DNA of 64,000 bases from Pseudoxanthomonas sp. SE1 (GTDB taxonomy: Bacteria; Pseudomonadota; Gammaproteobacteria; Xanthomonadales; Xanthomonadaceae). Positions 21,474-35,259 of the stretch are shown here, one piece after another; the stretch's first letter is position 1, and each line of letters starts with the position of its first letter. The notes beneath the pieces are model-generated. The model was not told the origin of the DNA. It worked only from the letters and a program-made list of their open reading frames with translations, and ran no database searches. The stretch is from positions 2,967,001 through 3,031,000 of the forward strand of contig NZ_CP113783.1 in assembly GCF_029542205.1 (NCBI RefSeq). The letters are read 5' to 3'. Position numbers and translations under genes: made by a program.

Positions 21474-21803
21474 TCAGCGGGCCGCGCGTACCCATGGCGC
21501 AAGGACGCGCAGCCAGTGCGCGCGCCAGGTGAGCATGAACGCGGTGGCGAGCGCGCCCGCCGCGAGACTCATCACCCACACCAGCACCGCCATGGAGGCG
21601 TGGTCGACCACCAGACACAGGGCCAGCGCGACAACCAGGCCCGCGGCGCCCAGCAGGCGCAACAAGCCCGGCGTATGACGGGAACATCCAGGCGCCCATA
21701 CCTGCTGCACGTGGGCCTGCATCGACAGGGCCAGCCATGCCATGCCGGCCATGCTGGAGAGCAACGCCATCAGCAGCAGGCATGCCGTCATGGACTCAGG
21801 CAT
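21474..21803 (-). CDS. DUF3325 membrane protein of siderophore-uptake operon
   Basis: A 109-residue membrane protein with three helices (ACLLLMALLSSMAGMAWLAL, LLGAAGLVVALALCLVV, AVLVWVMSLAAGALATAFM). It matches DUF3325, a family found almost only behind PepSY and DUF3649 genes in siderophore-receptor operons. Its job is unknown, probably assisting iron reduction or release at the inner membrane. The start at MPESMTAC overlaps the PepSY stop by 8 nt; a second Met 4 codons later is also possible. Last gene of the operon. Confidence 0.75.
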   Translation of the reverse strand: MPESMTACLLLMALLSSMAGMAWLALSMQAHVQQVWAPGCSRHTPGLLRLLGAAGLVVALALCLVVDHASMAVLVWVMSLAAGALATAFMLTWRAHWLRVLAPWVRAAR

Positions 21804-23463
21804 GCGACGCCTCCACGCCGGCCACGCGCATCCCGGCCGCAACGGCACGCCGCCTCAGGATGCGTGCCGTGATCAACGCGACGGCCGCGGTCGCCAGCAA
21901 TGACAGGTCCACGCCCGCGACAGGCCAATAGCCAGCGCGCAGCGTGGCGAGCAGGTGGTCGCCGGTCGTCACCCAGTTCAGCAGCACGGCGACCATCGCC
22001 AGCACCGCTATCGTCCCGCATTGCTCGCGCCAGGCGGGATTGGCCAGCCCGCGCGCGACCGGCGCGCTGCGCCAACCGGCATGCAGCAACGCCAGCACCC
22101 AGGTTCCCCAGAAGGCGTAGCGCTCCCAGTCGCCGCGTGCCGACAGGTCTTCAGGCAACACGCGGTTGGCGACCAGTATCCCGAGCGCGGCCAGCACCAT
22201 GCCCGTCACCGTGGTGACGGCCAGGGCATCGACCACCCTCGCGCCCTGGCTGCCGCGCTGGGCATGCTGGCGCTTGCGCTTCTCGACGAAGAACACGAAC
22301 CCGGTCGCGATGCACACCGCACCCGCCAGTCCACCCAGCACGTAGAACCAGCGCAGCAGCCAGTGGCGGAAGTGCTGCAGGTGCAGGCCGGTGAGGAATT
22401 CGCTGACGCGGCCCACTGGGGTGGCGGCAGGATCCTCGCGGATCAGTTCGCCGGTCGATGCCTTGTAGTGGATGCCGTCGCCCACCAGCGCGATGCGGTC
22501 GGTGCCCGCGCGGTAGACGCTGACGTAGCCATTGGCATCGCCCACGTGCTGCAGCACCAGGAAGCCGACGTCGCCCGCCTTGTCCCTGGCCGCCCAACGG
22601 CGCTGCGCATCGGCCACCATCGCGTCGACATTGGCCAGGCCTGCAGGCACGCCGGCGCGCTCATGCGGCAGGCCGGTCTCGCGCGCTTCCACTTCCGCGT
22701 GCAGGTCATGCAGCCCGTGCAACTGCGTGTGGCCGAGCGGGAAGTAGTACGTGGCGGCGAAGATCAGCAGGCCGGTGAACGCGAAGAAAAAATGGAACGG
22801 CAATGCGACGACGCCGGTCAGGTTGTGCAGATCCAGCACGCTGCGCAGGCGCGCCTTGTCCGGCCGGAAGGTGAAGAACTCACGGAAGATCTTGCGGTGC
22901 ATCACCACGCCGCTGACCAGCGCGGCCAGCATGATCAACGCGGAAAAGCCGACGATCCAGATGCCCAGGTTCTTCCAGTCCAGGGTCAGGCCGTAGTGCA
23001 TGGGATAGAAGAAGCCGCTGCCGACCTTGAGCCTGTCGTTGGGCAAGGGCGTGCCGTCGCGTGGATCGAGGGTGCCGTCGGCCCAGATGGTTTCCTCCGG
23101 ATCCTTCGCATTTGGCACTTCGTATCCCGCGAACACCTGCAACACCGGGTCGCGGTGGGTGGTGTAGGCGCTCCAGCTGACCACGGTATCGAAGCGGGCC
23201 GGCATCTCGCCGCTGACGCGGGGACGCATCGCATCCACGGCTGCGGGCAGCGGCTGCATGCGCTCGAAAGCCGGGCGCAGCACCTTTTCATACGAAGGCA
23301 TCGGTTGCGGCTCGAAACGCGTGGACGGGATCGCCCAGCGGTCGATTTCGCGATCGAACACCGACAGCGCGCCGAAGAAGAACGCGGCCATCAGCACGAA
23401 GCCCAGCACCAGGCCGAACCAGGTATGCAGCCATGCCATGGCCTGACGGAAGCTCGGGAACAT
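21796..23463 (-). CDS. PepSY-associated TM protein, putative siderophore-iron reductase
   Basis: A 555-residue inner-membrane protein of the PepSY_TM family. The first helix carries the family mark LHTWFGLVLGF; further helices lie near residues 190-230, 330-360 and in the C-terminal third. Periplasmic PepSY-like parts sit between helices one and two and again near residue 290. Conserved membrane histidines (LHTW, VLDLHNLTG, LHLQHFRHWL) suggest haem binding, and members such as FpvG-like proteins are thought to reduce ferric siderophores in the periplasm. AGGAGG precedes the start. It sits between DUF3649 and DUF3325 in an iron operon. Confidence 0.85.
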   Translation of the reverse strand: MFPSFRQAMAWLHTWFGLVLGFVLMAAFFFGALSVFDREIDRWAIPSTRFEPQPMPSYEKVLRPAFERMQPLPAAVDAMRPRVSGEMPARFDTVVSWSAYTTHRDPVLQVFAGYEVPNAKDPEETIWADGTLDPRDGTPLPNDRLKVGSGFFYPMHYGLTLDWKNLGIWIVGFSALIMLAALVSGVVMHRKIFREFFTFRPDKARLRSVLDLHNLTGVVALPFHFFFAFTGLLIFAATYYFPLGHTQLHGLHDLHAEVEARETGLPHERAGVPAGLANVDAMVADAQRRWAARDKAGDVGFLVLQHVGDANGYVSVYRAGTDRIALVGDGIHYKASTGELIREDPAATPVGRVSEFLTGLHLQHFRHWLLRWFYVLGGLAGAVCIATGFVFFVEKRKRQHAQRGSQGARVVDALAVTTVTGMVLAALGILVANRVLPEDLSARGDWERYAFWGTWVLALLHAGWRSAPVARGLANPAWREQCGTIAVLAMVAVLLNWVTTGDHLLATLRAGYWPVAGVDLSLLATAAVALITARILRRRAVAAGMRVAGVEASHA

Positions 23464-23473
23464 GTCGGCCTCC

Positions 23474-23785
23474 TCAGACCAGCAGCGATTGCACGAACGA
23501 GCCCACGCCCGCCAGCAACGCACCGCCGCCGGCCAGCACCGCCCACGCCACCCACACCCGCCGCGCCGCGAACGTCCAGAGGAACGCCACCAGGAACGTC
23601 AGCACGCCCAGCAGGCTGGCGAGGAACTCGGCATCGTGGAAATCCATGCCGGCGGCGAACATCAGGCTGGCGCCAGCGGCGACGATGCCCCACGCGAAGG
23701 CATAGCCGCCGAACACGGCGGCGGTGATGCGGGCCGCCAAGTGGAGGCGTGGCGCGTGGAAGGAAGCGGCGGTGGTGCTGGACAT
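23474..23785 (-). CDS. DUF3649 membrane protein of siderophore-uptake operon
   Basis: A 103-residue membrane protein with three hydrophobic helices (AARITAAVFGGYAFAWGIV, FLASLLGVLTFLVAFLW, VAWAVLAGGGALLAGVG) matching DUF3649. The family is found next to PepSY reductase-like and TonB receptor genes, as here, and is thought to work with the reductase. The gene starts 37 nt after the receptor stop and ends 10 nt before the PepSY start, so all four genes should be one transcript. Expected control is by iron through Fur. Confidence 0.8.
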   Translation of the reverse strand: MSSTTAASFHAPRLHLAARITAAVFGGYAFAWGIVAAGASLMFAAGMDFHDAEFLASLLGVLTFLVAFLWTFAARRVWVAWAVLAGGGALLAGVGSFVQSLLV

Positions 23786-23822
23786 GGCGATGGCTCGTGT
23801 CTCGGTGCGGGGAAGCGACGGC

Positions 23823-26030
23823 TCAGAACCGCCAGTTCAGGCTGAGCGTGTAGTTGCGCGGCGCGCCGTAGTAACCGCTGTAACGCAGCGTATTGATGTA
23901 CTTCTCGTCGCCGATGTTGTTGACGTTGAGCCGCAGCGTGGCGTTCGGCAGGAAGTCCCACGCGGCGAAGCCGTTGAACACCGCGTAGCTGTCCTGGCGA
24001 ACGGTGAAGCCGCTGGATTCCACGTTCGAAATGCTGCTCTGCCAGCGCCCGCCAATGCCGAAGGACAGTGCCGTATAGGTCGGCAGGCGCGCGCTCAGCA
24101 ACAGGTTGGCCGTCCGGCGAGGCACCCAGCGATAGGTATCGTCTCCATCCTGCCCGGTCAGCTTCAGCGCGGTATAGCCGAACACCATGTCGACGTTGTC
24201 GCTCAGCTTGCCCGTGGCTTCGAATTCGACGCCCTTGGACTCGACGTCCACGCCTTCGTAGTAGAACTGGCCAAGGTCGTTGTAACCGGCACCGGTTGCC
24301 AGACCATCCTGCTCGGCCCGGAACACGGCCAGCGTGGTCAGCAGGCGCTTGTCCAGCCAATCGGCTTTCACACCCAACTCGTAGTTCGACCCCTTGGTCG
24401 GATCCAGGTAACGGCCGTCCGCATCCGACTGGCTCTGCGGCTGGTAGATGTCCGAATAGCTGACGTAGCCCAATACGTTGGGCGTGAAGTCGAAGGTCAG
24501 ACCCGCGTAAGGACTGGTCTCGCTCTCGGTCTGATCGAATACCACGCCGTAGTTGACGCCTTCGCGGTGGTACTCGGCGTAGTTGAATCCGACCACGGCC
24601 TTGAGCCTGTCCGTCAGCGACAGTCGGGTCGCGCCGTAGGCGCGCTTGAGCCGCTCATCCAGCGTGCTGTAGACCGACAGATCGCCCCACACCGGCTCGG
24701 GGATCACGTCACCCGCCCACGGAAAGCCGGGCATCTCGATGTAACCGCAAAGTTCGGTGCCGCACATGGCGCCCGCGTACTGGCTGCTGACGCTTTCGCT
24801 CTTGGACCAGCTCACGCCAAGCATGACTTCCTGGTCGCGGCCGAACATGGGAAAGTGGCCATTGAGCGTCGCCGAGCCCAGATCGGCAGTGAACTTGTCG
24901 GCGCCGCCCCACGGATAACCATACAGCCCCAGATTGGTGCCCGGCTCCAGGCCAGTGGCCGCGAAATCAGTGGCGTAGAACAGCTTGTCGTCGTTGCGGA
25001 TGTCGCGATGGTTGTAGGACAGCTTCATCTGCCAGTCTGCGCCCAGCTGGTGGGTGTACTCGATGAAACCGGTCTTGGTGGTCGTGTCCCAGTACGTCCA
25101 GTCCTGGGTGGTCGAGGCTCCGCGATCCCATTCGGCCTGCGTGCCATCGCTGTACATGAAGCCGAGCGCGCCCCACATGTTGCCGTTGGTCTTTCCTTCC
25201 TGCCAGGAATACCCCAGCGTCAACGTGCCGTTCTCGCCGATCTGGCCATCCACCACGCCATAGAGGAAGTCGCGCGTGTCGTCCTTGCCGCGCAGCCATG
25301 AATCGCCTTCCTCGTGCGCAGCCACCACCCGTCCGGCCCAGGTGCCGTTCTCGGTGAACGGCGTGGAGTAATCGACCTCCGCCCGCGTCGTGCCCCAGGA
25401 GCCGTAGCTGATGCCGACACTCCCCTGCGGATCGTTGGTAGGGCGCTTGCGCACGTAGTTGATCGTGCCGGCGGCATTGCCCACGCCGGTCAGCAGGCCA
25501 TTGGCGCCACGGATGACCTCCAGCTTCTCGTAGCCCAAGGTGTCCTGCGTGCCGGTGACGATGCCCCAGCTGTTGGGCAGACCGACGCCATCGATCTGGG
25601 TATTGGCGATGTCGAAGCCGCGCGCGGTGAAGTTGGTACGGTTGGTTTCCCATTCCTCCACCTGGATGCCGGTCGCCATGCGCAACGCTTCGTTGAGGCT
25701 GTCGGTACCGAACTGCATCATCTGCTCGCTGCTCACCACGCTGATCGACTGCGGCGTTTCCTTGATCGCGAGGTCGAGGTTGGTGGCGCCGTTGCTGACG
25801 CGGCTGGCGCGCTGACCGACGACCATCACCGCATCGAGGTCGGTCGCTGTCGCGGAAGCATCCGCGGCCGCCTGGACGGCAGGCACTGCGTCCTGCGGCG
25901 CGGCGATTGCCGTGCCCGCCGTGCAGGCCAGAGCGATGCAGATGGCGGTACGCAGCCGCGCCGCCTTGGGGGGGTGGCAAGGGAGCGACGGCACGGGAAG
26001 ACAGCAGGATGGGGGGGACGTGGAGGGCAT
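23823..26030 (-). CDS. TonB-dependent siderophore receptor (FpvA/FhuE type)
   Basis: A ferric-siderophore receptor of about 735 residues. After a signal peptide (KAARLRTAICIALACTAGTA) come a TonB-box-like DAVMVVG, a plug with ETPQSISVVSSEQMMQFG and YEKLEVIRGANGLLTGVGNA (the siderophore-receptor signature), and a barrel ending LSLNWRF. First gene of an iron operon with DUF3649, PepSY and DUF3325, behind a Fur-box-like site. The start is uncertain: the ATG at 26030 lies directly after a C8 tract and lacks a ribosome site; in-frame upstream starts exist at 26084 (ATG) and 26102 (GTG). Two further C7 tracts lie in the first 21 codons. Confidence 0.88.
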   Translation of the reverse strand: MPSTSPPSCCLPVPSLPCHPPKAARLRTAICIALACTAGTAIAAPQDAVPAVQAAADASATATDLDAVMVVGQRASRVSNGATNLDLAIKETPQSISVVSSEQMMQFGTDSLNEALRMATGIQVEEWETNRTNFTARGFDIANTQIDGVGLPNSWGIVTGTQDTLGYEKLEVIRGANGLLTGVGNAAGTINYVRKRPTNDPQGSVGISYGSWGTTRAEVDYSTPFTENGTWAGRVVAAHEEGDSWLRGKDDTRDFLYGVVDGQIGENGTLTLGYSWQEGKTNGNMWGALGFMYSDGTQAEWDRGASTTQDWTYWDTTTKTGFIEYTHQLGADWQMKLSYNHRDIRNDDKLFYATDFAATGLEPGTNLGLYGYPWGGADKFTADLGSATLNGHFPMFGRDQEVMLGVSWSKSESVSSQYAGAMCGTELCGYIEMPGFPWAGDVIPEPVWGDLSVYSTLDERLKRAYGATRLSLTDRLKAVVGFNYAEYHREGVNYGVVFDQTESETSPYAGLTFDFTPNVLGYVSYSDIYQPQSQSDADGRYLDPTKGSNYELGVKADWLDKRLLTTLAVFRAEQDGLATGAGYNDLGQFYYEGVDVESKGVEFEATGKLSDNVDMVFGYTALKLTGQDGDDTYRWVPRRTANLLLSARLPTYTALSFGIGGRWQSSISNVESSGFTVRQDSYAVFNGFAAWDFLPNATLRLNVNNIGDEKYINTLRYSGYYGAPRNYTLSLNWRF

Positions 26031-26118
26031 GGGGGGGGTATCGGGGAGGGGATGGAGTTGCGCGGCCGTGGCGGACAACGACATCCCCGCCCGCGACACC
26101 ACGCGATGCGGTCATTAG

Positions 26119-26291: not shown

Positions 26292-26966
26292 TCAGAGCTT
26301 GAACAGCGGCTGCAGGCGTCGCGCCAGCCAGCCCGGGAAGCGCAGCGGCGCATCCAGGGCGGAGACGCAGATGCAGGCGACGCCGGGCACGGTTACCGGC
26401 TGGTGCTCGACGTCGCTGTCCAGGTCGGCCACGTCACCGGGGGCGAAGTGCCCCAGCGCATCGTGGTAGGCACCGCGCAGGATCTGGGTAAGTTCCGTCC
26501 CGCCATGGCTGTGCACGGGCATGCTGCGGCCGGGGCCGATCTTCAGCATCAGCAGCGTGCCTGTCGGCGTGCCCGCCGCCCGGATGCAATGCACGCCCGG
26601 CGCCATCCAGCGCCATTTCAAGGCACGGTAGGACGTGCCGAAATAAGGATGCAGCGGCGCCGGCAGGCGATCATCCGTCTCGTACGGCGCGATCCGCGGT
26701 GGTGGCGCCACCGCGACAGGCTCATCATCGAGGCGACGCAGCATCGCCTCGCGCAGGACGGCCTGGTGTCCTTCGTCCGGGGCGCCCGGTCCGGGCTGCT
26801 GGTGTTCGATCAGCTGTCCCCCGATGCATTCGGCCTCCTCCACGCGCGCGCGGCAATGCGCACAGGTTTCCAGGTGCGTGGCGGCGACGATCGCCATCTC
26901 GACGGTCAGCGCGCCCGCCGCGTAGCTGACCAGGGTGGAGGGATCGAGATGATGGTGCGGATTCAC
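26292..26966 (-). CDS. chrR: ChrR family anti-sigma factor (cupin type)
   Basis: A 224-residue zinc anti-sigma factor. The N-terminal anti-sigma domain shows the zinc motif HLETCAHC (about residues 31-38). The C-terminal half is a ChrR-type cupin with likely metal ligands in HSHGGTE and a later His in VEHQP. In Rhodobacter sphaeroides, ChrR holds the ECF sigma factor SigmaE and releases it under singlet-oxygen stress, the cupin being needed for sensing. The start overlaps the sigma gene's stop by 4 nt, the normal coupling. It should therefore act on the sigma factor encoded just upstream. Confidence 0.9.
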   Translation of the reverse strand: MNPHHHLDPSTLVSYAAGALTVEMAIVAATHLETCAHCRARVEEAECIGGQLIEHQQPGPGAPDEGHQAVLREAMLRRLDDEPVAVAPPPRIAPYETDDRLPAPLHPYFGTSYRALKWRWMAPGVHCIRAAGTPTGTLLMLKIGPGRSMPVHSHGGTELTQILRGAYHDALGHFAPGDVADLDSDVEHQPVTVPGVACICVSALDAPLRFPGWLARRLQPLFKL

Positions 26967-27589
26967 GGCTGTCCCCGTACTTGGCCCTGCAGGCGCAGGA
27001 ACGCGCGCCGCAGGTGCGACTTCACCGTGCCCAGCGGCATGCCGAGTTCGTCGGCGATTTCCTGGTGACTCTTGGCTTCGAAATACGACATCCGCATCAA
27101 CCTCGCCTGCACCGCCGGCAGTTCCTCAATGCGGCGTTGCAGGTGGACGTGCTCGGCGTAGTCCTCCGCCGACGTGAAGGGCCGGGCCAACTCCTCGTCC
27201 GTGCCCTGGCACGCATCCTCCAGCACCTGCACCCAGCTTGGCTCGCGTCGCACGCGGTCGATGTGGAGGTTGCGGCCGATCCGGAACAGCCACGTGGACA
27301 CCGCGCCCTGCTGCGGATCGTACATGGCCGCCCGCTGCCACAGGCGCAGCAGCGCCTCCTGCGAGAGCTCTTCCGCCACCGCCTCGGGACTGCCCAGCCC
27401 GCGCAGGTACAGGCACAGGCGCGGCATGAAGTGATCGTAGATCCGCATGAAGCTGCCTCGGTCGCGCAGCCGCGCCACCGCGATCATCTCGCGGGTCCAG
27501 TCATGCGTATCCCGGGTGGAGGGCGTGGGCGTGGACACCGGCCGTGCCGCCCCGCGGGGCGACGTGATCCTTGTGAAGTCGGACGGCAT
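26963..27589 (-). CDS. rpoE: ECF RNA polymerase sigma factor of the ChrR-controlled (SigmaE) type
   Basis: A 208-residue ECF sigma factor. Region 2 is seen at about residues 45-115 (PEAVAEELSQEALLRLW, STWLFRIGRNLHIDRVRRE) and region 4 at about 150-200 (ARLMRMSYFEAKSHQEIADE, MPLGTVKSHLRRAFLRLQ). It overlaps the ChrR-like anti-sigma gene by 4 nt, which places it with the singlet-oxygen-type ECF group. Likely targets are its own operon, the divergent gene, and the lipid-modification genes from 28.6 kb on. The first 30 residues are not part of the sigma fold, so the true start may be at a later Met. No confident promoter was recognised. Confidence 0.9.
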   Translation of the reverse strand: MPSDFTRITSPRGAARPVSTPTPSTRDTHDWTREMIAVARLRDRGSFMRIYDHFMPRLCLYLRGLGSPEAVAEELSQEALLRLWQRAAMYDPQQGAVSTWLFRIGRNLHIDRVRREPSWVQVLEDACQGTDEELARPFTSAEDYAEHVHLQRRIEELPAVQARLMRMSYFEAKSHQEIADELGMPLGTVKSHLRRAFLRLQGQVRGQP

Positions 27590-27735
27590 GGTATGCCAAG
27601 CCCCGTTGCTGGTCGTGATGGGCGTATGTACGGGCGGGATCGCCGTTTGGATGCGGCGTCATCCGATGCCCGGGTGCATCCGCCCTGCCCCGCGCGGCGT
27701 AGGACGAACCGGTCCAGCCCCTGGAATCCAGACGC

Positions 27736-28525
27736 ATGTCCATACACCGCCACCTGCTTGCGCTGTCGATGGGCGCCATCGGCGCCTGTGCGGCCGGTCC
27801 CGCCCGTGCGGACACCGACATCCAGCACCAGGAAGCCCGGGCCCATGCCCGCAAGGGCGAAACGCTGCTCTACCGCGAATCGCACTGGCGTTACCGGCAG
27901 GAGGGAACGGCGCGCCGGCTGGTGCTGTACCGGTGTCCGGATGGCCGTGCGTTCGCGCGCAAGACCGTGGTCGAACGCGCCATCGCCCAGGCACCGGACT
28001 TCGATTTCCAGGATGCGCGGGATGGCTATCGGGAAGGCGTGCGCAGCGGACCGCAGGGGCGCGTGGTCTACGTCCGGGCGGACGCGCGCGCTCCCCTGAA
28101 GGAACGTGCGCTGGTCGTACCCGCCGATGGCGTGATCGATGCGGGCTTCGATGCCAGCGTGCGCCGGCATTGGGCGACCCTTCGCGCCGGTGACGACGTG
28201 ACCCAACCCTTCCTGCTGCCCAGCAGGATGTCCTTCGTGCCGGTACGCCTGCAGCCCGGACCGTCCGCGATGGCAGGGCATTCCCGCGCAGCGCATGACC
28301 ATGCGACTGGACCGCTGGTACGGCTTCGTCGCACCCTCGATGGAACTGACCTACGCGAACATCGACCAACGCCTGCTGGAATTCGCCGGCATCGCCACCA
28401 TCCGCGACAGCGCGGGGCGGCACCAGGACGTGCGCATCGTGTTCCCCGAACCCGCCAAGCCCGCCGATGCCGGCGCCCTGCAGCGCGCTTTCGCCACGCC
28501 GCTCGTGCAGCGGTGCACGTCCTGA
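27736..28525 (+). pseudogene. secreted protein of unknown function, broken by an apparent single-base frameshift
   Basis: The first frame gives a signal peptide (MSIHRHLLALSMGAIGACAA, ending near ARA) and about 160 mature residues including ESHWRYRQEGTARRLVLYRC, DFDFQDARDGYREGVR and LPSRMSFVPVRLQP. Near 28277 the sense continues in another frame: IPAQRMTMRLDRWYGFVAP, then LLEFAGIATIRDSAGRHQDV and RIVFPEP, ending at 28525. Removing one G from the GGG at about 28276-28278 joins them smoothly. Either a recent mutation or a sequencing error. No function is known. It is divergent from the sigma factor gene, so it may be a target of that system. Confidence 0.7.
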
Positions 28526-28594
28526 GCGTCGTACCGCGTGCATCCGATCGCCGCCTGCACACGTATGTGCCGTGAATGCAGCGGAGACAGAGCG

Positions 28595-29548
28595 ATGCCG
28601 GCCAGCGTTTCATCCCTCTCCACGCTGGCGGCACGCGGTCTGGCGGCCGTGCGTCGCTGGTTCGACACGCAGATGGCGGATGACGAAGACGCAGGGCGCG
28701 CCCGCGAGATCGACTGGCTGCGTGCCGTCCCCTTCATCGGCATGCACCTTGCGTGCGTGGCCGTGCTGTGGGTCGGCGTATCGCCTGCCGCGGTGATCGC
28801 GGCAGTGGCGCTCTACGCCGTGCGCATGTTCGCGATCACCGGCTTCTATCACCGCTACTTCTCGCACCGCACGTTCCGCACGTCGCGCGTGCTGCAGTTC
28901 GTGTTCGCGCTGATCGGCGCCGCCAGCGTGCAGCGCGGCCCATTGTGGTGGGCTGCGCACCACCGCAACCACCATCGCCATGCCGACACCCCCGCGGACC
29001 CGCATTCGCCCGCGGTGCACGGCTTCTGGTGGAGCCACGCGGGCTGGTTCCTCACCCGCGGCGGCTTCCGCACGGACTGGGCGCGCATTCCCGACCTTGC
29101 GCGCTATCCGGAACTGCGCTGGCTGGACCGCTACGACACCGTCGTGCCGGTGTTGCTGGCCGCCAGCCTGTATGCGGCCGGGGAACTGCTGCAGCACGTC
29201 GCGCCGCAGTGGGGAACGGACGGCCCGCAGTTGCTGGTGTGGGGCTTCTTCGTGTCCACCGTTGTGCTGTTCCATGCCACGGTCACCATCAATTCGCTGG
29301 CGCACCGCTTCGGGCGCCGCCGCTTCGACACGCACGACGACAGCCGCAACAACGTCTGGCTCGCGCTGCTGACCTTCGGCGAGGGTTGGCACAACAACCA
29401 CCACTTCTTCCCTGGTACCGCGCGCCAGGGGTTCCGCTGGTGGGAGATCGACCTGACCTGGTACGGACTGCGGCTGCTCGCCCTGGTCGGCCTGGTGCAG
29501 GAACTCAAGCCCGTGCCCGCCTGGGTGCTGGCCAAGGCGAGGCATTGA
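28595..29548 (+). CDS. acyl-CoA/acyl-lipid desaturase
   Basis: A 317-residue membrane di-iron fatty-acid desaturase. All three histidine boxes are present: HRYFSH, HRNHHRH and HNNHH, with hydrophobic helices between them. It resembles delta-9-type acyl-CoA desaturases. First gene of a seven-gene run; the next gene starts 2 nt after its stop. The start at MPASVSSLST follows GGAG and gives a normal N-terminus; the longer frame reads into the preceding gene's end. In context it probably supplies or modifies unsaturated acyl chains used by the downstream methyltransferases and flavoprotein. Confidence 0.88.
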   Translation: MPASVSSLSTLAARGLAAVRRWFDTQMADDEDAGRAREIDWLRAVPFIGMHLACVAVLWVGVSPAAVIAAVALYAVRMFAITGFYHRYFSHRTFRTSRVLQFVFALIGAASVQRGPLWWAAHHRNHHRHADTPADPHSPAVHGFWWSHAGWFLTRGGFRTDWARIPDLARYPELRWLDRYDTVVPVLLAASLYAAGELLQHVAPQWGTDGPQLLVWGFFVSTVVLFHATVTINSLAHRFGRRRFDTHDDSRNNVWLALLTFGEGWHNNHHFFPGTARQGFRWWEIDLTWYGLRLLALVGLVQELKPVPAWVLAKARH

Positions 29549-29550
29549 GC

Positions 29551-30834
29551 ATGCGCATCGCGATCGTGGGTTCCGGCATCGCAGGCCTGGCGTCGGCCTG
29601 GTGGCTGTCGCAGCGGCACGAGGTGGTGCTGTTCGAAGCCAACGACTACCTTGGCGGACACACGCATACGCACGCCGTCGAGCAGGCCGGGCGCGAGTAC
29701 CGCATCGACAGCGGCTTCATCGTCTTCAACCCGGACCACTATCCGCTGCTGTGCGGGCTCTTCGACGAGCTTGGCGTGGCCTCGCAGCCGACCACGATGA
29801 GTTTTTCCGTGCACAGCGCGCGCAGCGGCGTGGAATACAACGCGACCTCGCTCGATACGCTGTTCTGCCAGCGCCGCAACCTGCTGTCGCCGCGCTTCTG
29901 GGGCATGCTCCGCGACCTGGCGCGTTTCTACCGCGAGGCGCCTGCATTGTTGGTCGGAGAGCAGACGGGCCCCACGCTCGGCGACTACCTGCAGGCCGGC
30001 GGCTACGGCGATGCCTTCCGCGATGAACATCTGGTGCCGATGGCATCGGCCCTGTGGTCGTCCCCGCCGCAGGGGATCCTCGCGTTTCCTGCGCGCTACC
30101 TGGTGCAGTTCATGGCGAACCACCACATGCTGACGCTGGGTGAACGCTCGCCGTGGCGCGTGGTGGCCGGCGGTTCGGCGACGTACGTGGAGGCGCTGCG
30201 TCGTCGCTGGCGCGTGCAGGAACGTTTGTCCACGCCCGTGCTGGCGGTACGGCGCGATGCGGATGGCGTCGAACTCGATACGCTGCGTGGCCGCGAACGC
30301 TTCGACCACGTGGTGATGGCCTGCCACAGCGACGATGCGCTGCGCCTGATGCATGACGCCGACATCCGCGAGCGCGACATCCTCGGCGCGATCCGCTACC
30401 AGTCCAACGACACCGTGCTTCACACCGACGCGCGCCTGCTGCCGCGTCGCCGCAAGGCCTGGGCCGCATGGAACGCGCACGTGCCGCGCGACCCGTCGGC
30501 ACCGTGCACGGTGAGCTACTGCATGAACCTGCTGCAGGACGTCGTGTCGCCGGATCCTTTCGTGGTGACCCTCAACCGCAGCGAGGCGATCGATCCCGCG
30601 CGCATCCTCAAGCGCATGCAGTATCGCCATCCGGTCTACGACCACGCCATGGTCGCCGCACAGCGGCGCAGGCACGAGATCCAGGGACACCGGCGCACGT
30701 GGTTCGCCGGTGCCTATTGGGGTTGGGGCTTCCATGAGGACGGCATCCGCAGCGCGCGCGACGTGGTGGATGCCATCGAGGCGCTGACCGCCGCAACGGC
30801 CGTCCGGCGCGACGCAGAAGCGGTGAGCGCGTGA
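29551..30834 (+). CDS. FAD-dependent amine-oxidase-like protein of the ChrR lipid cluster
   Basis: A 427-residue flavoprotein. The N-terminal dinucleotide-binding motif is clear (IVGSGIAGLASAWWLSQ) followed by VVLFEANDYLGGHTHT, the usual FAD ribose/pyrophosphate-binding stretch of NAD(P)-binding_8/amine-oxidase-like proteins; the C-terminal FAGAYWGWGFHEDGIRSA closes the FAD site. Homologues sit next to DUF1365 and CFA-synthase genes in many bacteria, and in Rhodobacter a member of this type is linked to unusual (furan/methylated) fatty acids under SigmaE control. A lipid desaturase/oxidase role is likely; amine oxidation is unlikely. Its GTGA overlap with the next gene indicates coupling. Confidence 0.88.
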   Translation: MRIAIVGSGIAGLASAWWLSQRHEVVLFEANDYLGGHTHTHAVEQAGREYRIDSGFIVFNPDHYPLLCGLFDELGVASQPTTMSFSVHSARSGVEYNATSLDTLFCQRRNLLSPRFWGMLRDLARFYREAPALLVGEQTGPTLGDYLQAGGYGDAFRDEHLVPMASALWSSPPQGILAFPARYLVQFMANHHMLTLGERSPWRVVAGGSATYVEALRRRWRVQERLSTPVLAVRRDADGVELDTLRGRERFDHVVMACHSDDALRLMHDADIRERDILGAIRYQSNDTVLHTDARLLPRRRKAWAAWNAHVPRDPSAPCTVSYCMNLLQDVVSPDPFVVTLNRSEAIDPARILKRMQYRHPVYDHAMVAAQRRRHEIQGHRRTWFAGAYWGWGFHEDGIRSARDVVDAIEALTAATAVRRDAEAVSA

Positions 30835-31607
30835 CCGCGCCGCTGGCAAGCGCCGTATACGAGGGCTGGGTGCGGCATCGCCGGTATGCGCCGCGCGCGC
30901 ATGCCTTCCGCTATCGCATGGCGCAGCTCTACCTGGACCTGGACGAAATCGATACCGTGTTCGACCGTCGCTGGCTGTGGTCGGTGGATCGCCGCAACCT
31001 GGCCGAGTTCCGCCGGTGCGACTACCTGGCACCGCACGACCGGCCGCTGGCCGAGGCTGTGCGCGACCGGGTCGAACGCGCGCTCGGCCATCGGCCGCAA
31101 GGCCCGGTCCGCCTGCTGACGCACCTGCGCTACGGCGGCTACGTCTTCAATCCGGTCAGCTTCTACTACTGCTTCCAGCCTGATGGCACCACGCTGGACG
31201 CCGTGCTGGCCGAGATCACCAACACGCCCTGGCGCGAACGGCACAGCTACGTGTTGCCGGTACAGGACGGTGTGCCGTACGGCGACGGCTGGGCATGGGG
31301 CTTCGACAAGGCCTTCCACGTGTCGCCGTTCCTGCCGATGGACTGCACCTACCGCTGGCGCTTCACACCGCCTGAAGACGCCCTGCGCGTGCACATGCAA
31401 GTCGAGCGCGAAGGGCGGCGCGCCTTTGACGCCACCCTGACCCTGCTGCGCCGACCCTTGGATGGCGCCTCGCTCGCCCGCGTGCTGTGGCGCTACCCGC
31501 TGATGACCGCGCAGGTCGTCGCCGGCATCCACTGGCAGGCGCTGCGCCTGTGGCTCAAGCGCACGCCCGTCCACGACCACCCTTCCCTCGCCCGCGAGAC
31601 CCCATGA
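30831..31607 (+). CDS. DUF1365 protein
   Basis: A 258-residue DUF1365 protein. Family blocks seen are YEGWVRHRRYAPRAHAFRY, LLTHLRYGGYVFNPVSFYYC, AEITNTPWRERHSYVL and KAFHVSPFLPMDCTYRWRF. DUF1365 proteins are almost always encoded between an FAD amine-oxidase-like gene and a CFA-synthase-like gene, exactly as here, and are presumed to take part in acyl-chain modification; their chemistry is unknown. The GTG start overlaps the preceding stop by 4 nt, and the next ATG overlaps this gene's stop by 4 nt. Confidence 0.88.
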   Translation: MTAPLASAVYEGWVRHRRYAPRAHAFRYRMAQLYLDLDEIDTVFDRRWLWSVDRRNLAEFRRCDYLAPHDRPLAEAVRDRVERALGHRPQGPVRLLTHLRYGGYVFNPVSFYYCFQPDGTTLDAVLAEITNTPWRERHSYVLPVQDGVPYGDGWAWGFDKAFHVSPFLPMDCTYRWRFTPPEDALRVHMQVEREGRRAFDATLTLLRRPLDGASLARVLWRYPLMTAQVVAGIHWQALRLWLKRTPVHDHPSLARETP

Positions 31608-32854
31608 ACGAAATCGCCGACGTCCCTGCCACCGCGTCCTTCAGCGCGCTCGATCGCCTGCTGCGCTCGCAGCTGCTGGCGCGCCTGGATGCGCTGGACC
31701 ACGGCATGCTGGTGGTCCGCGACGCGCTGGGCGAACACCGCTTCGGTCGCACCGGTGGCGATGCGCTGCCCGCCGTGCATCTGTGGATCGACGATCCCGC
31801 GTTCTACCGCGCGGTGGCCGCCCAGGGCAGCGTCGGCGCGGGCGAGGCTTACATCGGCGGCCAATGGCGCTGCGACGACCTGGTAGGTCTGGTGCGCCTG
31901 CTGGTGCGCAACCGCGCGTTGCTGGATGGCATGGAAGGCGGCCTCGCGCGGCTGGGGGGCTGGGCGCTGCGCAGCTGGCACGCACTCCGGCGCAACACAC
32001 GCGAAGGCAGCCGTCGCAACATCGCTGCGCACTACGACCTCGGCAACGATTTCTTCGCCCTGTTCCTGTCGTCGGACCTGATGTATTCCTCGGCGATGTT
32101 CGCTTCGCCGGACGAGGACCTGGAAACGGCCTCGTACCGCAAGCTCGATGCGGTGTGCCGCAAGCTGGCGCTGGCGCCGGGGGACCGGGTGATCGAGATC
32201 GGTACCGGCTGGGGCGGCTTCGCGCTGCATGCGGCGCGCCACTACGGCGCGCACGTGACCACCACCACGATCTCGCGGGAACAGCACGCGCTGGCCAGCG
32301 CGCGTGTCGCCGCGGCCGGCCTCGGGGATCGCGTGACCCTGCTGCTGCAGGACTACCGCGACCTGCAGGGGCAGTACGACAAGCTGGTGTCCATCGAGAT
32401 GATCGAGGCGATCGGCGCGCAATACCTCGACACGTTCTTCGGCAGGCTGGGCAGTCTGCTGCGGCCGGGCGGACAGGCGCTGCTGCAGGCCATCACCATC
32501 GAGGATCACCGCTACGTGCAGGCGCGCGACGCGGTGGATTACATCAAACGCTTCGTGTTCCCCGGCAGCTTCATCCCGTCGCTCAACGCGATGTACGACG
32601 CCAAGACCCGTGCCGGCGACCTGCAGGTCGTCCACCAGGAGGACTTCGGGCTGTCGTATGCGTATACGTTGCGCGCATGGCGGCGCCGTTTCATGACGCG
32701 CCTGGCGGATGTACGCGCACAGGGCTTCGATGAGCGCTTCATCCGCCTGTGGGAGTTCTACCTGGCCTATTGCGAAGGCGGCTTCCTGGAGCGCTCCATC
32801 GGCGTGTCGCACCTGCTGATGGCGCGTCCCGGCCATCCATCGGGGGCCGCATGA
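31604..32854 (+). CDS. cyclopropane-fatty-acyl-phospholipid synthase-like methyltransferase
   Basis: A 416-residue SAM-dependent methyltransferase of the CFA synthase family. Family landmarks are YDLGNDFFALFLSSDLMYSS (about residue 145), the SAM site VIEIGTGWGGFALHAA, and SIEMIEAIGAQYLDTFF. In the E. coli enzyme the stretch reads YSCAYW; here the Cys is Ser (YSSAMF), so it may add a methyl or methylene group without ring closure. Such enzymes use phospholipid unsaturated acyl chains as substrate at the membrane surface. It is in the middle of the coupled operon (4-nt overlaps on both sides). Confidence 0.88.
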   Translation: MNEIADVPATASFSALDRLLRSQLLARLDALDHGMLVVRDALGEHRFGRTGGDALPAVHLWIDDPAFYRAVAAQGSVGAGEAYIGGQWRCDDLVGLVRLLVRNRALLDGMEGGLARLGGWALRSWHALRRNTREGSRRNIAAHYDLGNDFFALFLSSDLMYSSAMFASPDEDLETASYRKLDAVCRKLALAPGDRVIEIGTGWGGFALHAARHYGAHVTTTTISREQHALASARVAAAGLGDRVTLLLQDYRDLQGQYDKLVSIEMIEAIGAQYLDTFFGRLGSLLRPGGQALLQAITIEDHRYVQARDAVDYIKRFVFPGSFIPSLNAMYDAKTRAGDLQVVHQEDFGLSYAYTLRAWRRRFMTRLADVRAQGFDERFIRLWEFYLAYCEGGFLERSIGVSHLLMARPGHPSGAA

Positions 32855-33648
32855 ATCCCCTGCATGTCTTCGCCCTCGTCGCCGTGTTGGCGGCCGTCGT
32901 GATGATGCTGGGCTGGCGGTGGCAGCGACGGCATGCCAATGCCGGCATCGTCGACGTGCTGTGGTCCGCATGCGTGGGGGGCAGCGCTGTTCTGTTCGCC
33001 GCGCTGGGCGACGGCGCGTGGCAGGCGCGCGCCACCCTGGCCGTGCTCGGTGGCGCGTGGGGTGCACGACTGGCGTTGCACCTGTGGCACCGCGTGCGCA
33101 GCGAGCCGGAGGATGGCCGTTACCGCCATCTGCGCGAGCACTGGCAGGGACACCAGGGCAAGTTTTTCCTGTTCTTCATGGCGCAGGCGCTGCTGGTGGT
33201 GCTGTTCGCCCTGCCGTTCGCCGCCGTGGCGCGCAGTCCGGTGGACGGGGCCTGGCCTTGGATCGTGCTGGCGGTGGCCATCTGGACGGGCAGCGTCGCC
33301 GGCGAGGCCGTCGCCGACCGGCAACTGGCGCGCTTCCGCGCTGACCCGGCCAATCGCGGCAGGACATGCCGCGAGGGTTTGTGGCGATATTCGCGCCATC
33401 CCAACTATTTCTTCGAATGGCTGCACTGGTTCGCGTACATCGCGCTGGCGGTCGGTTCGTCGTGGTTCTGGCTGGCGTGGGCAGGCCCGGTGGTGATGTA
33501 CGTGTTCCTGCGCTGGATCTCCGGCATTCCCTATACCGAAGCCCAGGCGCTGCGCACGCGCGGCGAAGACTACCGCGAGTACCAGCGCACCACAGCGATG
33601 CTGTTGCCCTGGTTTCCCAAACCCGCCACCAAGGAGGCGACACGATGA
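32851..33648 (+). CDS. DUF1295 membrane protein (isoprenylcysteine methyltransferase/steroid reductase-like)
   Basis: A 265-residue membrane protein of DUF1295, related in fold to steroid 5-alpha-reductases and isoprenylcysteine methyltransferases. Several helices are followed by the C-terminal signature CREGLWRYSRHPNYFFEWLH and a final FLRWISGIPYTEAQ/EYQRTTAMLLPWFP segment, the expected cofactor region. Probably acts on a membrane lipid, as a reductase or methyltransferase; which one cannot be told. The ATG overlaps the upstream stop by 4 nt, and the next ATG overlaps this gene's end by 4 nt. Confidence 0.87.
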   Translation: MNPLHVFALVAVLAAVVMMLGWRWQRRHANAGIVDVLWSACVGGSAVLFAALGDGAWQARATLAVLGGAWGARLALHLWHRVRSEPEDGRYRHLREHWQGHQGKFFLFFMAQALLVVLFALPFAAVARSPVDGAWPWIVLAVAIWTGSVAGEAVADRQLARFRADPANRGRTCREGLWRYSRHPNYFFEWLHWFAYIALAVGSSWFWLAWAGPVVMYVFLRWISGIPYTEAQALRTRGEDYREYQRTTAMLLPWFPKPATKEATR

Positions 33649-34727
33649 ACGCGATGGTGGAAGAATTGGCCGCCGACAAGGCTGCCCCGGGCCTGCTGGG
33701 CCTGGCCGAACGCGGCCTGTTGCCCGACATGCTGATACGCGCCGGCATCCGCCAGTTGTGCGCGCAGCGGCTGCGCGACGAAAGCAAGGGCGGCCAGGAA
33801 ACGCAGTCCGCGCTGCTCGCGCATCGGCTGCAGGCGCTGCGCCAGGGGGCGCTGGCCGTGCATACCGATGCCGCCAACCGGCAGCACTACGAACTTCCTG
33901 CCGACTTCTTCCGTCATTGCCTTGGCGAGCGCCTGAAGTACAGCAGTTGCTATTACCCCACCGGCACCGAGACCCTGGACCAGGCCGAAGGCGCGATGCT
34001 GGCGTTGTATGGCGAACGCGCCGCGCTGGCCGATGGCCAGGACATCCTGGAATTGGGCTGCGGCTGGGGCTCGCTGACGCTGTGGATGGCCGCGCGCTAT
34101 CCGGGCGCACGCATCACCGCCGTGTCCAACTCCCACTCGCAGCGTCAGTTCATCGAGGCGCGCTGCAAAGAACGTGGCTTGACCAACGTACGCGTCATTA
34201 CCTGCGACGTGAACCAGCTGCAGCTGGAGCCGCAGGCCTTCGATCGCTGCGTGTCGGTGGAGATGTTCGAACACGTCAGCAACCATGCCGCGCTGCTACA
34301 TCGGATCCATGACGCGCTTCGCCCCGGTGGCGCGCTGTTCGTGCACATCTTCGTACACCGCCACCTGATGTATCCGTTCGAGACGCAGGGTGAGGACAAC
34401 TGGATGGGCCGGCATTTCTTCACCGGCGGCATGATGCCGTCGGCCGACCTGCTGCTGTTCTTCCAGGACCATCTGCATCTGCAGGAACGCTGGCTGCTCG
34501 ACGGCACCCACTACCAGCGCACCGCCAACCACTGGCTGGCGCGGCACGATGCACATCGCGCGGAAGTGATGGACGTGCTGCGCAGCGCCTATGGCGATGC
34601 CGCGCCGCTATGGAACCAGCGCTGGCGCATGTTCTGGATGGCGTGCGCGGAACTGTTCGGCTATCGCGGCGGGCAGGAATGGCTGGTCGCGCACTATCGC
34701 TTCCAGCGCCCGACCCGGGAGCACTGA
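33645..34727 (+). CDS. second CFA-synthase-like SAM methyltransferase
   Basis: A 360-residue methyltransferase, more distant from CFA synthase than the gene two places upstream. Seen are HYELPADFFRHCLGERLKYS, the SAM-binding DILELGCGWGSLTLWMAARY, VSVEMFEHVSNHAALL and HHFFTGG-like (RHFFTGGMMPSADLL). The start at MNAMVEELA has AAGGAGG 8 nt upstream. Having two different CFA-like methyltransferases in one operon suggests two successive or alternative acyl modifications. The lipocalin gene starts 1 nt after its stop. It could alternatively act on a soluble lipid or amine, like the related plant N-methyltransferases. Confidence 0.86.
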   Translation: MNAMVEELAADKAAPGLLGLAERGLLPDMLIRAGIRQLCAQRLRDESKGGQETQSALLAHRLQALRQGALAVHTDAANRQHYELPADFFRHCLGERLKYSSCYYPTGTETLDQAEGAMLALYGERAALADGQDILELGCGWGSLTLWMAARYPGARITAVSNSHSQRQFIEARCKERGLTNVRVITCDVNQLQLEPQAFDRCVSVEMFEHVSNHAALLHRIHDALRPGGALFVHIFVHRHLMYPFETQGEDNWMGRHFFTGGMMPSADLLLFFQDHLHLQERWLLDGTHYQRTANHWLARHDAHRAEVMDVLRSAYGDAAPLWNQRWRMFWMACAELFGYRGGQEWLVAHYRFQRPTREH

Positions 34728-34728
34728 C

Positions 34729-35259
34729 ATGCGTACCCTGCCCTTCATGCTGCTCGCGCTGTTGGTCGCCACCACCACCGCCGCCTGCCGCTCCGGCTAC
34801 GTCAAGCCGTCCATTCCCACGGCCGCACCGGTCGACGTGGACCGCTTCATGGGCGACTGGTACGTCATCGCGCACATCCCATCGTTTCCCGAACGCGAGG
34901 CCTATGCCGCCGTGGAGTCGTACGCGAAGCTGCCCGACGGCCGCATCCAGACCACGTTCCGCTTCCGCAAGGGCGCGCTGGACGGACCGGAGAAGACGAT
35001 GCACCCCATCGGCACCGTGAAGCCCGACGGTGGCGGTGCAGTGTGGGACATGCAGTTCGTGTGGCCGATCCAGGCCGAGTACGTCATCGCGTACGTGGGC
35101 GCCGACTACCAGCAGACGATCGTCGGACGCAGCAAGCGCGATTACGTGTGGTTGATGGCGCGCACGCCGCGGATTCCGGAGGCGGATTACCAGGCGCGCG
35201 TGCGCCAGATCGAAGCGCTGGGCTACGACGTGTCGAAGCTGCGCCGCGTACCGCACTGA
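34729..35259 (+). CDS. outer-membrane lipocalin (Blc-like)
   Basis: A 176-residue bacterial lipocalin. After a signal peptide with a possible lipobox (TTTAAC), the family's GxW motif is seen in DVDRFMGDWYVIAHIPSFPE, then EREAYAAVESYAKLPDGRI and the C-terminal RSKRDYVWLMARTPRIPE. Bacterial Blc binds fatty acids or lysophospholipids at the outer membrane. Ending this operon, it may carry the modified or damaged acyl chains that the upstream enzymes make or repair. It is the last gene of the run that starts at 28595. Confidence 0.85.
   Translation: MRTLPFMLLALLVATTTAACRSGYVKPSIPTAAPVDVDRFMGDWYVIAHIPSFPEREAYAAVESYAKLPDGRIQTTFRFRKGALDGPEKTMHPIGTVKPDGGGAVWDMQFVWPIQAEYVIAYVGADYQQTIVGRSKRDYVWLMARTPRIPEADYQARVRQIEALGYDVSKLRRVPH

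Follow-up and report, generated by a model that had tools for sequence, protein, structure and literature searches.

A predicted sigma/ChrR-controlled furan fatty acid operon with a dedicated desaturase in Pseudoxanthomonas sp. SE1

Described furan fatty acid systems and the Pseudoxanthomonas locus

In Rhodobacter sphaeroides, the vaccenate of phospholipids is converted to a monomethyl furan acid by UfaM, UfaD (RSP1091, a flavin adenine dinucleotide (FAD) protein), and UfaO (RSP1090, a DUF1365 protein). In Rhodopseudomonas palustris, for which dimethyl furan fatty acid synthesis in bacteria was first reported, FufM (RPA0924) adds a second methyl group to give the dimethyl furan both in vivo and in vitro (PMC7380195). 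The furan enzymes of R. palustris are biochemically proven (Lemke 2020, PMC7380195). In this work, homologs of all four enzymes were observed in a single operon of Pseudoxanthomonas sp. SE1, within a stretch of 64,000 nucleotides (the window; contig NZ_CP113783.1, positions 2,967,001 to 3,031,000) of a 4.23 Mb genome that consists of one contig. The operon lies beside the genes of a ChrR-type anti-sigma factor and an extracytoplasmic function (ECF) sigma factor. Judged from sequence, with a probability of about 0.8, the locus is a sigma/ChrR-controlled operon for (dimethyl) furan fatty acids with a seemingly complete gene set. The enzymes and the regulator class are already known; new here are the furan reading, a desaturase whose close orthologs coincide with the operon (both in the same 62 of 119 family genomes), and an exact promoter motif, GCATCC-N16-CGTA. 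If the reading is true, one gammaproteobacterial family would join R. palustris as a maker of dimethyl furan fatty acids, in roughly half of its sampled genomes.

ChrR-type sigma control is shared with R. sphaeroides, whereas the arrangement differs: the window unites the four enzymes with a dedicated desaturase and a lipocalin, while by gene numbers ufaM stands apart in R. sphaeroides and fufM apart in R. palustris (PMC7380195). Consecutive furan genes (ufaD-ufaO-ufaM) are also present in Halomonas sp. YLGW01, the UfaM of which made 11-methyloctadec-12-enoate in E. coli; a dedicated desaturase, FufM, and sigma control are not described in the passages of that paper drawn on here (PMC12089945). 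The R. sphaeroides ECF11 system SigmaE-ChrR likewise has a ChrR with a zinc-type motif and a cupin domain, and furan genes belong to its core regulon (PMC6852236).

A published counterpart exists in Stenotrophomonas maltophilia, where smlt2375-2367 was presented as a membrane-lipid cluster of the cyclopropane fatty acid (CFA) type under sigma-Ec/ChrR control, with methyltransferases named CfaS1 and CfaS2 and a product that was left unidentified (PMC11832516). In strain KJ, the loss of chrR raised the expression of the cluster 165-697-fold, which reverted without sigma-Ec (RNA-seq performed once), and it conferred menadione tolerance together with a higher ceftazidime susceptibility, both largely cluster-dependent (PMC11832516). 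The divergent regulator pair is the same as in the window, and so is the order of periplasmic protein, desaturase, FAD enzyme, hypothetical protein, CfaS2, hypothetical protein(s), CfaS1, and lipocalin, as far as annotations, and not the K279a or KJ sequences, were compared. The differences are a ChrA gene after chrR, the interpretation of the product as a CFA-type lipid modification, and an additional inner-membrane gene in the nine-gene cluster (PMC11832516). By inference, this gene would encode DUF2878, because a DUF2878 gene lies between UfaM and DUF1295 in one family locus (L048) and a gap of matching size was found in 48 of 57 family loci. The word "furan" does not occur in the main text of that paper (PMC11832516). 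Our literature search returned no report of the promoter motif, of a single operon uniting desaturase and FufM, or of a furan interpretation of clusters of the S. maltophilia type. Among openly licensed papers (CC0, CC BY, CC BY-SA), none was found for furan fatty acids with Stenotrophomonas, and the search with "Xanthomona" returned only matches that by title concerned other subjects. With the present reading, a product can be predicted for a sigma-controlled membrane cluster that was published without an explanation and belongs to a genus of medical relevance; the two S. maltophilia "CFA synthases" encoded there would be furan enzymes.

The seven plus-strand genes at positions 28595-35259 overlap their neighbors by 4 bases or sit 1-2 bases apart, and the ChrR and ECF sigma genes are divergent from them on the minus strand. 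An original prediction, made from the letters of the window, had named this pair beside a tightly coupled seven-gene run, and all the named genes are present by profile matches. Whether the gene order recurs elsewhere, a question raised there, is answered by a survey of 119 family genomes, 62 of which carry the operon; 60 of the 61 other loci were read. The order desaturase-UfaD-UfaO-UfaM on one strand is kept in 59 of these 60, with gaps of less than 75 bp between desaturase and UfaD, so the arrangement is not due to chance. In the one exception (L087), the contig end cuts into UfaD, and the desaturase match lies on another contig. Inside the genus the operon is patchy, being present in two of the five sampled genomes.

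Identity of the methyltransferases and their partner enzymes

Anchor loci were collected by a scan of named sequences (the best 80 of more) and by whole-genome searches of eight of those genomes. The UfaD-like protein (29551-30834; PF01593), an FAD/amine-oxidase-like putative acyl desaturase, has 41-43% identity to the enzyme encoded beside UfaO and UfaM in six Rhodopseudomonas genomes and in Bradyrhizobium sp. BTAi1, and its neighbors are the same in all seven loci. In these seven loci, the counterparts of the UfaO-like DUF1365 protein (30831-31607; PF07103, 293 bits), a putative furan-forming oxygenase, are 36-40% identical; the window protein has 87% identity with one labelled Pseudoxanthomonas japonensis. 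One of the eight anchor genomes, a metagenome-assembled R. palustris, has no UfaO match. The two predicted S-adenosylmethionine-dependent methyltransferases are remote from each other. The first, UfaM-like (31604-32854; PF02353, 267 bits), has 40-42% identity to the UfaM of the seven loci. The second, FufM-like (33645-34727; PF02353, 134 bits), has 47-51% identity over about 340 residues to FufM in eight loci, compared with 26-27% to UfaM in seven; its predicted reaction is of the 9M5-FuFA to 9D5-FuFA type. A membrane protein with a DUF1295 domain, similar to steroid 5-alpha-reductases (32851-33648; PF06966, 226 bits), is encoded directly upstream of FufM, as in all eight Rhodopseudomonas/BTAi1 loci. 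Of 79 named loci that left room for it, 52 show the same adjacency (among the matches listed), and DUF1295 adjoins FufM in many loci of the phylum sample. DUF1295 is thus a probable candidate for a FufM partner.

Both methyltransferases had been called CFA-synthase-like in the original prediction. They are indeed two different PF02353 proteins, but their identity has to be revised, and they are best read as UfaM and FufM from percent identity, phylogeny, and residues. In a tree of 47 rows, in which the program flagged long branches, including the CFA, MmaA4, and N-methyltransferase rows, the UfaM rows, with those of the window and Rhodopseudomonas, form a single group of 19 with a support of 100/99, apart from the CFA synthases. 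The FufM rows are likewise united (99/82), with plant alkaloid N-methyltransferases as their neighbors, and the other CMAS protein of the genome pairs with E. coli CFA (99/91). Residues were compared at C139, E239, H240, H266, I268, and Y317 (E. coli numbering), of which all but H240 belong to the bicarbonate site. At the bicarbonate-site positions, the UfaM of the window has S, E, Q, I, and Y, while C, E, H, I, and Y are kept in the CFA synthases of E. coli and of this genome (C1:1861347). Over all six positions, 72 of 72 UfaM rows read xEAQIY (68 with S, 4 with A) and 80 of 83 FufM rows xEHHFY, whereas the two CFA synthases read CEHHIY. The UfaM and FufM of the window each share the residues of their Rhodopseudomonas orthologs at the compared positions. 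Since the tree groups are apart and the residues differ, the CFA-synthase reading of both proteins was rejected. With the two methyltransferases read as UfaM and FufM, the product class becomes predictable, namely a dimethyl furan fatty acid. In a phylum sample of 299 genomes, UfaO (E <= 1e-15) was found in 92 and FufM (E <= 1e-30) in 19, and 18 of these 19 also have UfaO, the exception being genome G152.

A product of the cyclopropane type, or another simply methylated acid, is highly improbable; both methyltransferases would then be CFA synthases with a membrane-stiffening role under stress, which is the assumption of the S. maltophilia authors. Both proteins do match PF02353 above the cut-off, the names CfaS1 and CfaS2 are in use (PMC11832516), and E. 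coli with the Halomonas UfaM also showed cyclic fatty acids (PMC12089945). However, both are separated from the CFA rows in the tree, the UfaM-like protein is without the C139 and H266 that the genome's own CFA keeps, the best Protein Data Bank (PDB) match of the FufM-like protein is a plant coclaurine N-methyltransferase (6gkv, E 4.7e-71), and the adjoining UfaD and UfaO would be left without a role. The same relationship to alkaloid N-methyltransferases, the closest solved relatives of FufM, speaks for another option, in which the operon ends at the monomethyl furan and FufM and DUF1295 act on a different lipid or a small molecule. It would also agree with FufM occurring without a UfaO match in G152, and with UfaD lying within the fetched flanks of 6 of 80 FufM genes (named, mostly alpha-proteobacterial loci, among the matches listed). 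We consider this improbable, because dimethyl furan formation by R. palustris FufM was shown both in vivo and in vitro (PMC7380195), the window FufM groups with the Rhodopseudomonas orthologs and has their residues, and nearly all FufM genomes have UfaO.

The dedicated desaturase and the proposed pathway

The first gene of the operon encodes a membrane fatty acid desaturase of the delta-9/SCD class (28595-29548; PF00487), with acyl-CoA desaturase 1 (4ymk, E 4.3e-29) as the best PDB match. The DUF1365 gene is present in 62 of the 119 family genomes, and a close desaturase ortholog (E below 1e-120) was found in all 62 genomes with the operon and in none of the 57 without it, where nothing closer than a remote paralog turned up (best E 6e-22). 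Close desaturases (E below 1e-110) occur in 8 of the 299 genomes of the phylum sample, all of them with UfaO. Three of the eight share the genus label g71, and the desaturase of one of these is closest to proteins named Marinobacter. In these three Marinobacter-like genomes, the desaturase, UfaD, UfaO, and UfaM are encoded in one block, and no FufM match was found. The one of them that was annotated (L130) has SnoaL-like and SDR genes between the desaturase and UfaD, and a DUF2878 gene and a homolog of the exported protein after UfaM. Just upstream of the operon in one family genome (L080, 3916-5187) lies another open frame, whose His-rich motifs resemble, by eye, those of desaturases.

The desaturase is a candidate for a fifth pathway gene, and its role is most likely substrate supply, i.e., the formation of the monoene for UfaM. 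Enzymes of the delta-9/SCD class usually act on saturated chains. Substrate supply is favored because the Lysobacterales of two papers are rich in iso-branched acids and have 16:1w7c or iso-17:1w9c as their unsaturated ones (PMC12195097, PMC12281983), while Rhodobacter uses vaccenate. We hypothesize that the pathway would run as follows. UfaM would methylate a cis-monoene on phospholipid acyl chains with no ring closure, UfaD would desaturate the methylated chain to a methyl diene, UfaO would close the diene with O2 to the monomethyl furan, and FufM, assisted by DUF1295, would add the second methyl group to give the dimethyl furan. With iso-branched saturated chains abundant in the membrane, the dedicated desaturase would most likely make the monoene, a substitute for the cis-vaccenate of the Rhodobacter pathway. 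The Blc-like lipocalin (34729-35259; PF08212, 138 bits; N-terminal signal by eye), the counterpart of smlt2367 by position, would probably bind or move lipids in the envelope, and the furan itself would scavenge reactive oxygen in the membrane. The distinct acyl product that the original prediction had expected thus gains grounds in the desaturase and FufM.

On the other hand, the desaturase could act late, once the ring is closed, or at a different place in the chain, so that an unsaturated furan fatty acid would result. FabA and a second desaturase already cover monoene synthesis in this genome, yet the dedicated desaturase is strictly operon-bound, and it accompanies UfaD, UfaO, and UfaM in the Marinobacter-like genomes, whose genus has 18:1w7c (PMC4157798). 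With the enzyme belonging to a class that usually works on saturated substrates and being encoded first in the block, we regard late action as unlikely and substrate supply as the preferred role.

Several observations weigh against the furan operon with monoene supply. The identity of the window enzymes to proven-type enzymes is just 36-51%, and the anchors are orthologs in Rhodopseudomonas strains and Bradyrhizobium sp. BTAi1, not the CGA009 proteins themselves. The window has no DUF2878 gene, and no lipid analysis of S. maltophilia furans was found in the literature search. Because the genome also holds a true FabA (TIGR01749 over the cut-off), FabZ, and the second desaturase, the need for an extra monoene is not proven, and 16:1w7c of Lysobacterales is itself a possible UfaM substrate. 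The presence of 18:1w7c in Marinobacter, the other lineage with a dedicated desaturase, weakens the rationale of a vaccenate-poor membrane. Finally, S. maltophilia mutants exposed to rose bengal or t-butyl hydroperoxide behaved almost like the wild type, with no clear singlet-oxygen effect (PMC11832516).

Promoter motif, regulators, and stress role

The ChrR-type protein (26292-26966, minus strand) has an HxxxCxxC motif and a cupin domain and matches TIGR02451 (165.7 bits, cut-off 124.5) and Cupin_7 (36.3 bits) above the cut-offs, as expected of the ECF11 type, while its score for the NF051881 equivalog is below the cut-off (154 of 300). Its gene overlaps by 4 bases that of the sigma factor, sigE (26963-27589, minus strand; Sigma70_r2 and r4_2). 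The parallel with the Rhodobacter SigmaE-ChrR system and its furan fatty acids that had been drawn earlier is supported. Orthologs of the sigma factor were found in 16 of the 60 family loci at 46-87% identity.

The motif GCATCC-N16-CGTA was found by eye in the window and two family loci. Since it was derived there, these are no independent test, in contrast to the remaining loci and the genome. It has three exact matches in the window (0.31 expected; three were reached in 0 of 100 shuffles). These predicted promoters lie before sigE-chrR (27629-27654, minus strand), 34 bp 5' of the ATG at 27736 of an exported-protein gene (27676-27701, plus strand), and 29 bp 5' of the ATG at 28595 of the desaturase operon (28540-28565, plus strand). 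A shared ECF-type promoter had been anticipated upstream of 28595 and 27589; both sites are exact, but the motif is not restricted to them, as the match before 27736 demonstrates. The 60 family loci (907 kb) contain 71 matches against 0 for the reversed pattern, and in the host genome 18 exact sites compare with 2 for the reversed control. The 300 bp upstream of the desaturase contain the motif in 15 of 16 loci with a ChrR-type sigma factor, in 15 of 18 with another recognized ECF factor, and in 1 of 26 with no recognized ECF factor, five of which carry a variant with a 17-base spacing farther upstream. Moreover, it precedes sigE in 15 of the 16 loci with the ChrR-type sigma factor. Other ECF factors thus occur in motif-bearing loci, at L043 annotated with an RskA-type anti-sigma factor, so the operon seems to swap regulators yet keep the promoter. 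In place of the ChrR-sigma pair, a sigma factor with an RskA-type anti-sigma factor was observed upstream of the operon in L043 (3471-4975), and a sigma factor with a long C-terminal extension in L060 (11318-12535). Promoters of R. sphaeroides SigmaE-ChrR carry a TGATCC-type -35 element, from which the motif of the window differs. A promoter of this type was rejected, as just scattered TGATCC/T sites were seen around sigE in the window and 14 family loci.

In the proposed reading, the release of the sigma factor by ChrR would let RNA polymerase start at the GCATCC-N16-CGTA promoters, with sigE-chrR, the exported-protein gene at 27736, and the seven-gene operon as transcripts. The motif lets the regulon be read from sequence. 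Beyond the window, ten genome sites sit 22-86 bp before genes for GTP cyclohydrolase I, two lipocalins, DUF4136 and DUF4426 proteins, a DNA photolyase, the methionine-sulfoxide reductase MsrP, an HlyD-type adaptor, a fasciclin-domain protein, and a 73-residue protein with no Pfam match. The sites C1:1944845, C1:2343291, C1:79297, C1:511377, and C1:3527828 are 23-86 bp before the genes for photolyase, MsrP, GTP cyclohydrolase I, and the two lipocalins; the MsrP site is 86 bp and that of the fasciclin-domain protein 53 bp upstream. The five remaining sites, inside genes, are probably due to chance. In this predicted regulon, the photolyase points to light and MsrP to oxidized protein, and the S. 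maltophilia phenotype points to superoxide. The lipid idea of the original prediction is largely right, but the role in singlet-oxygen defense is doubtful, since the orthologous S. maltophilia system gave tolerance to superoxide (menadione) and not to singlet oxygen (PMC11832516), a difference also from R. sphaeroides. As a tentative extension, for which we would claim somewhat less than even chances, Lysobacterales and Marinobacter may make undescribed furan acids on a desaturase-laid chain (e.g., iso-branched or C16-derived, 7M5/7D5-like, or unsaturated). In Lysobacterales, such a lipid, and not a cyclopropane acid, may be the reason why S. maltophilia without ChrR tolerates superoxide and is more susceptible to beta-lactams.

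The exported hypothetical protein is encoded by an eighth gene (27736-28525, plus strand) between sigE and the desaturase, which was overlooked in the original prediction, as were the promoters; by position it is the counterpart of smlt2375. Its frame is broken near 28260-28271 and spread over two frames, both of which match a single intact ortholog in L037 (66% over 167 residues and 70% over 84), and one continuous match was found in a genome of the same genus (L036). The split reflects a genuine frameshift or else an error of the assembly. Adjoining chrR, at positions 21796-26102, are genes named by eye as encoding a PepSY-type membrane protein, a small membrane protein, and a TonB-dependent siderophore-receptor-like protein.

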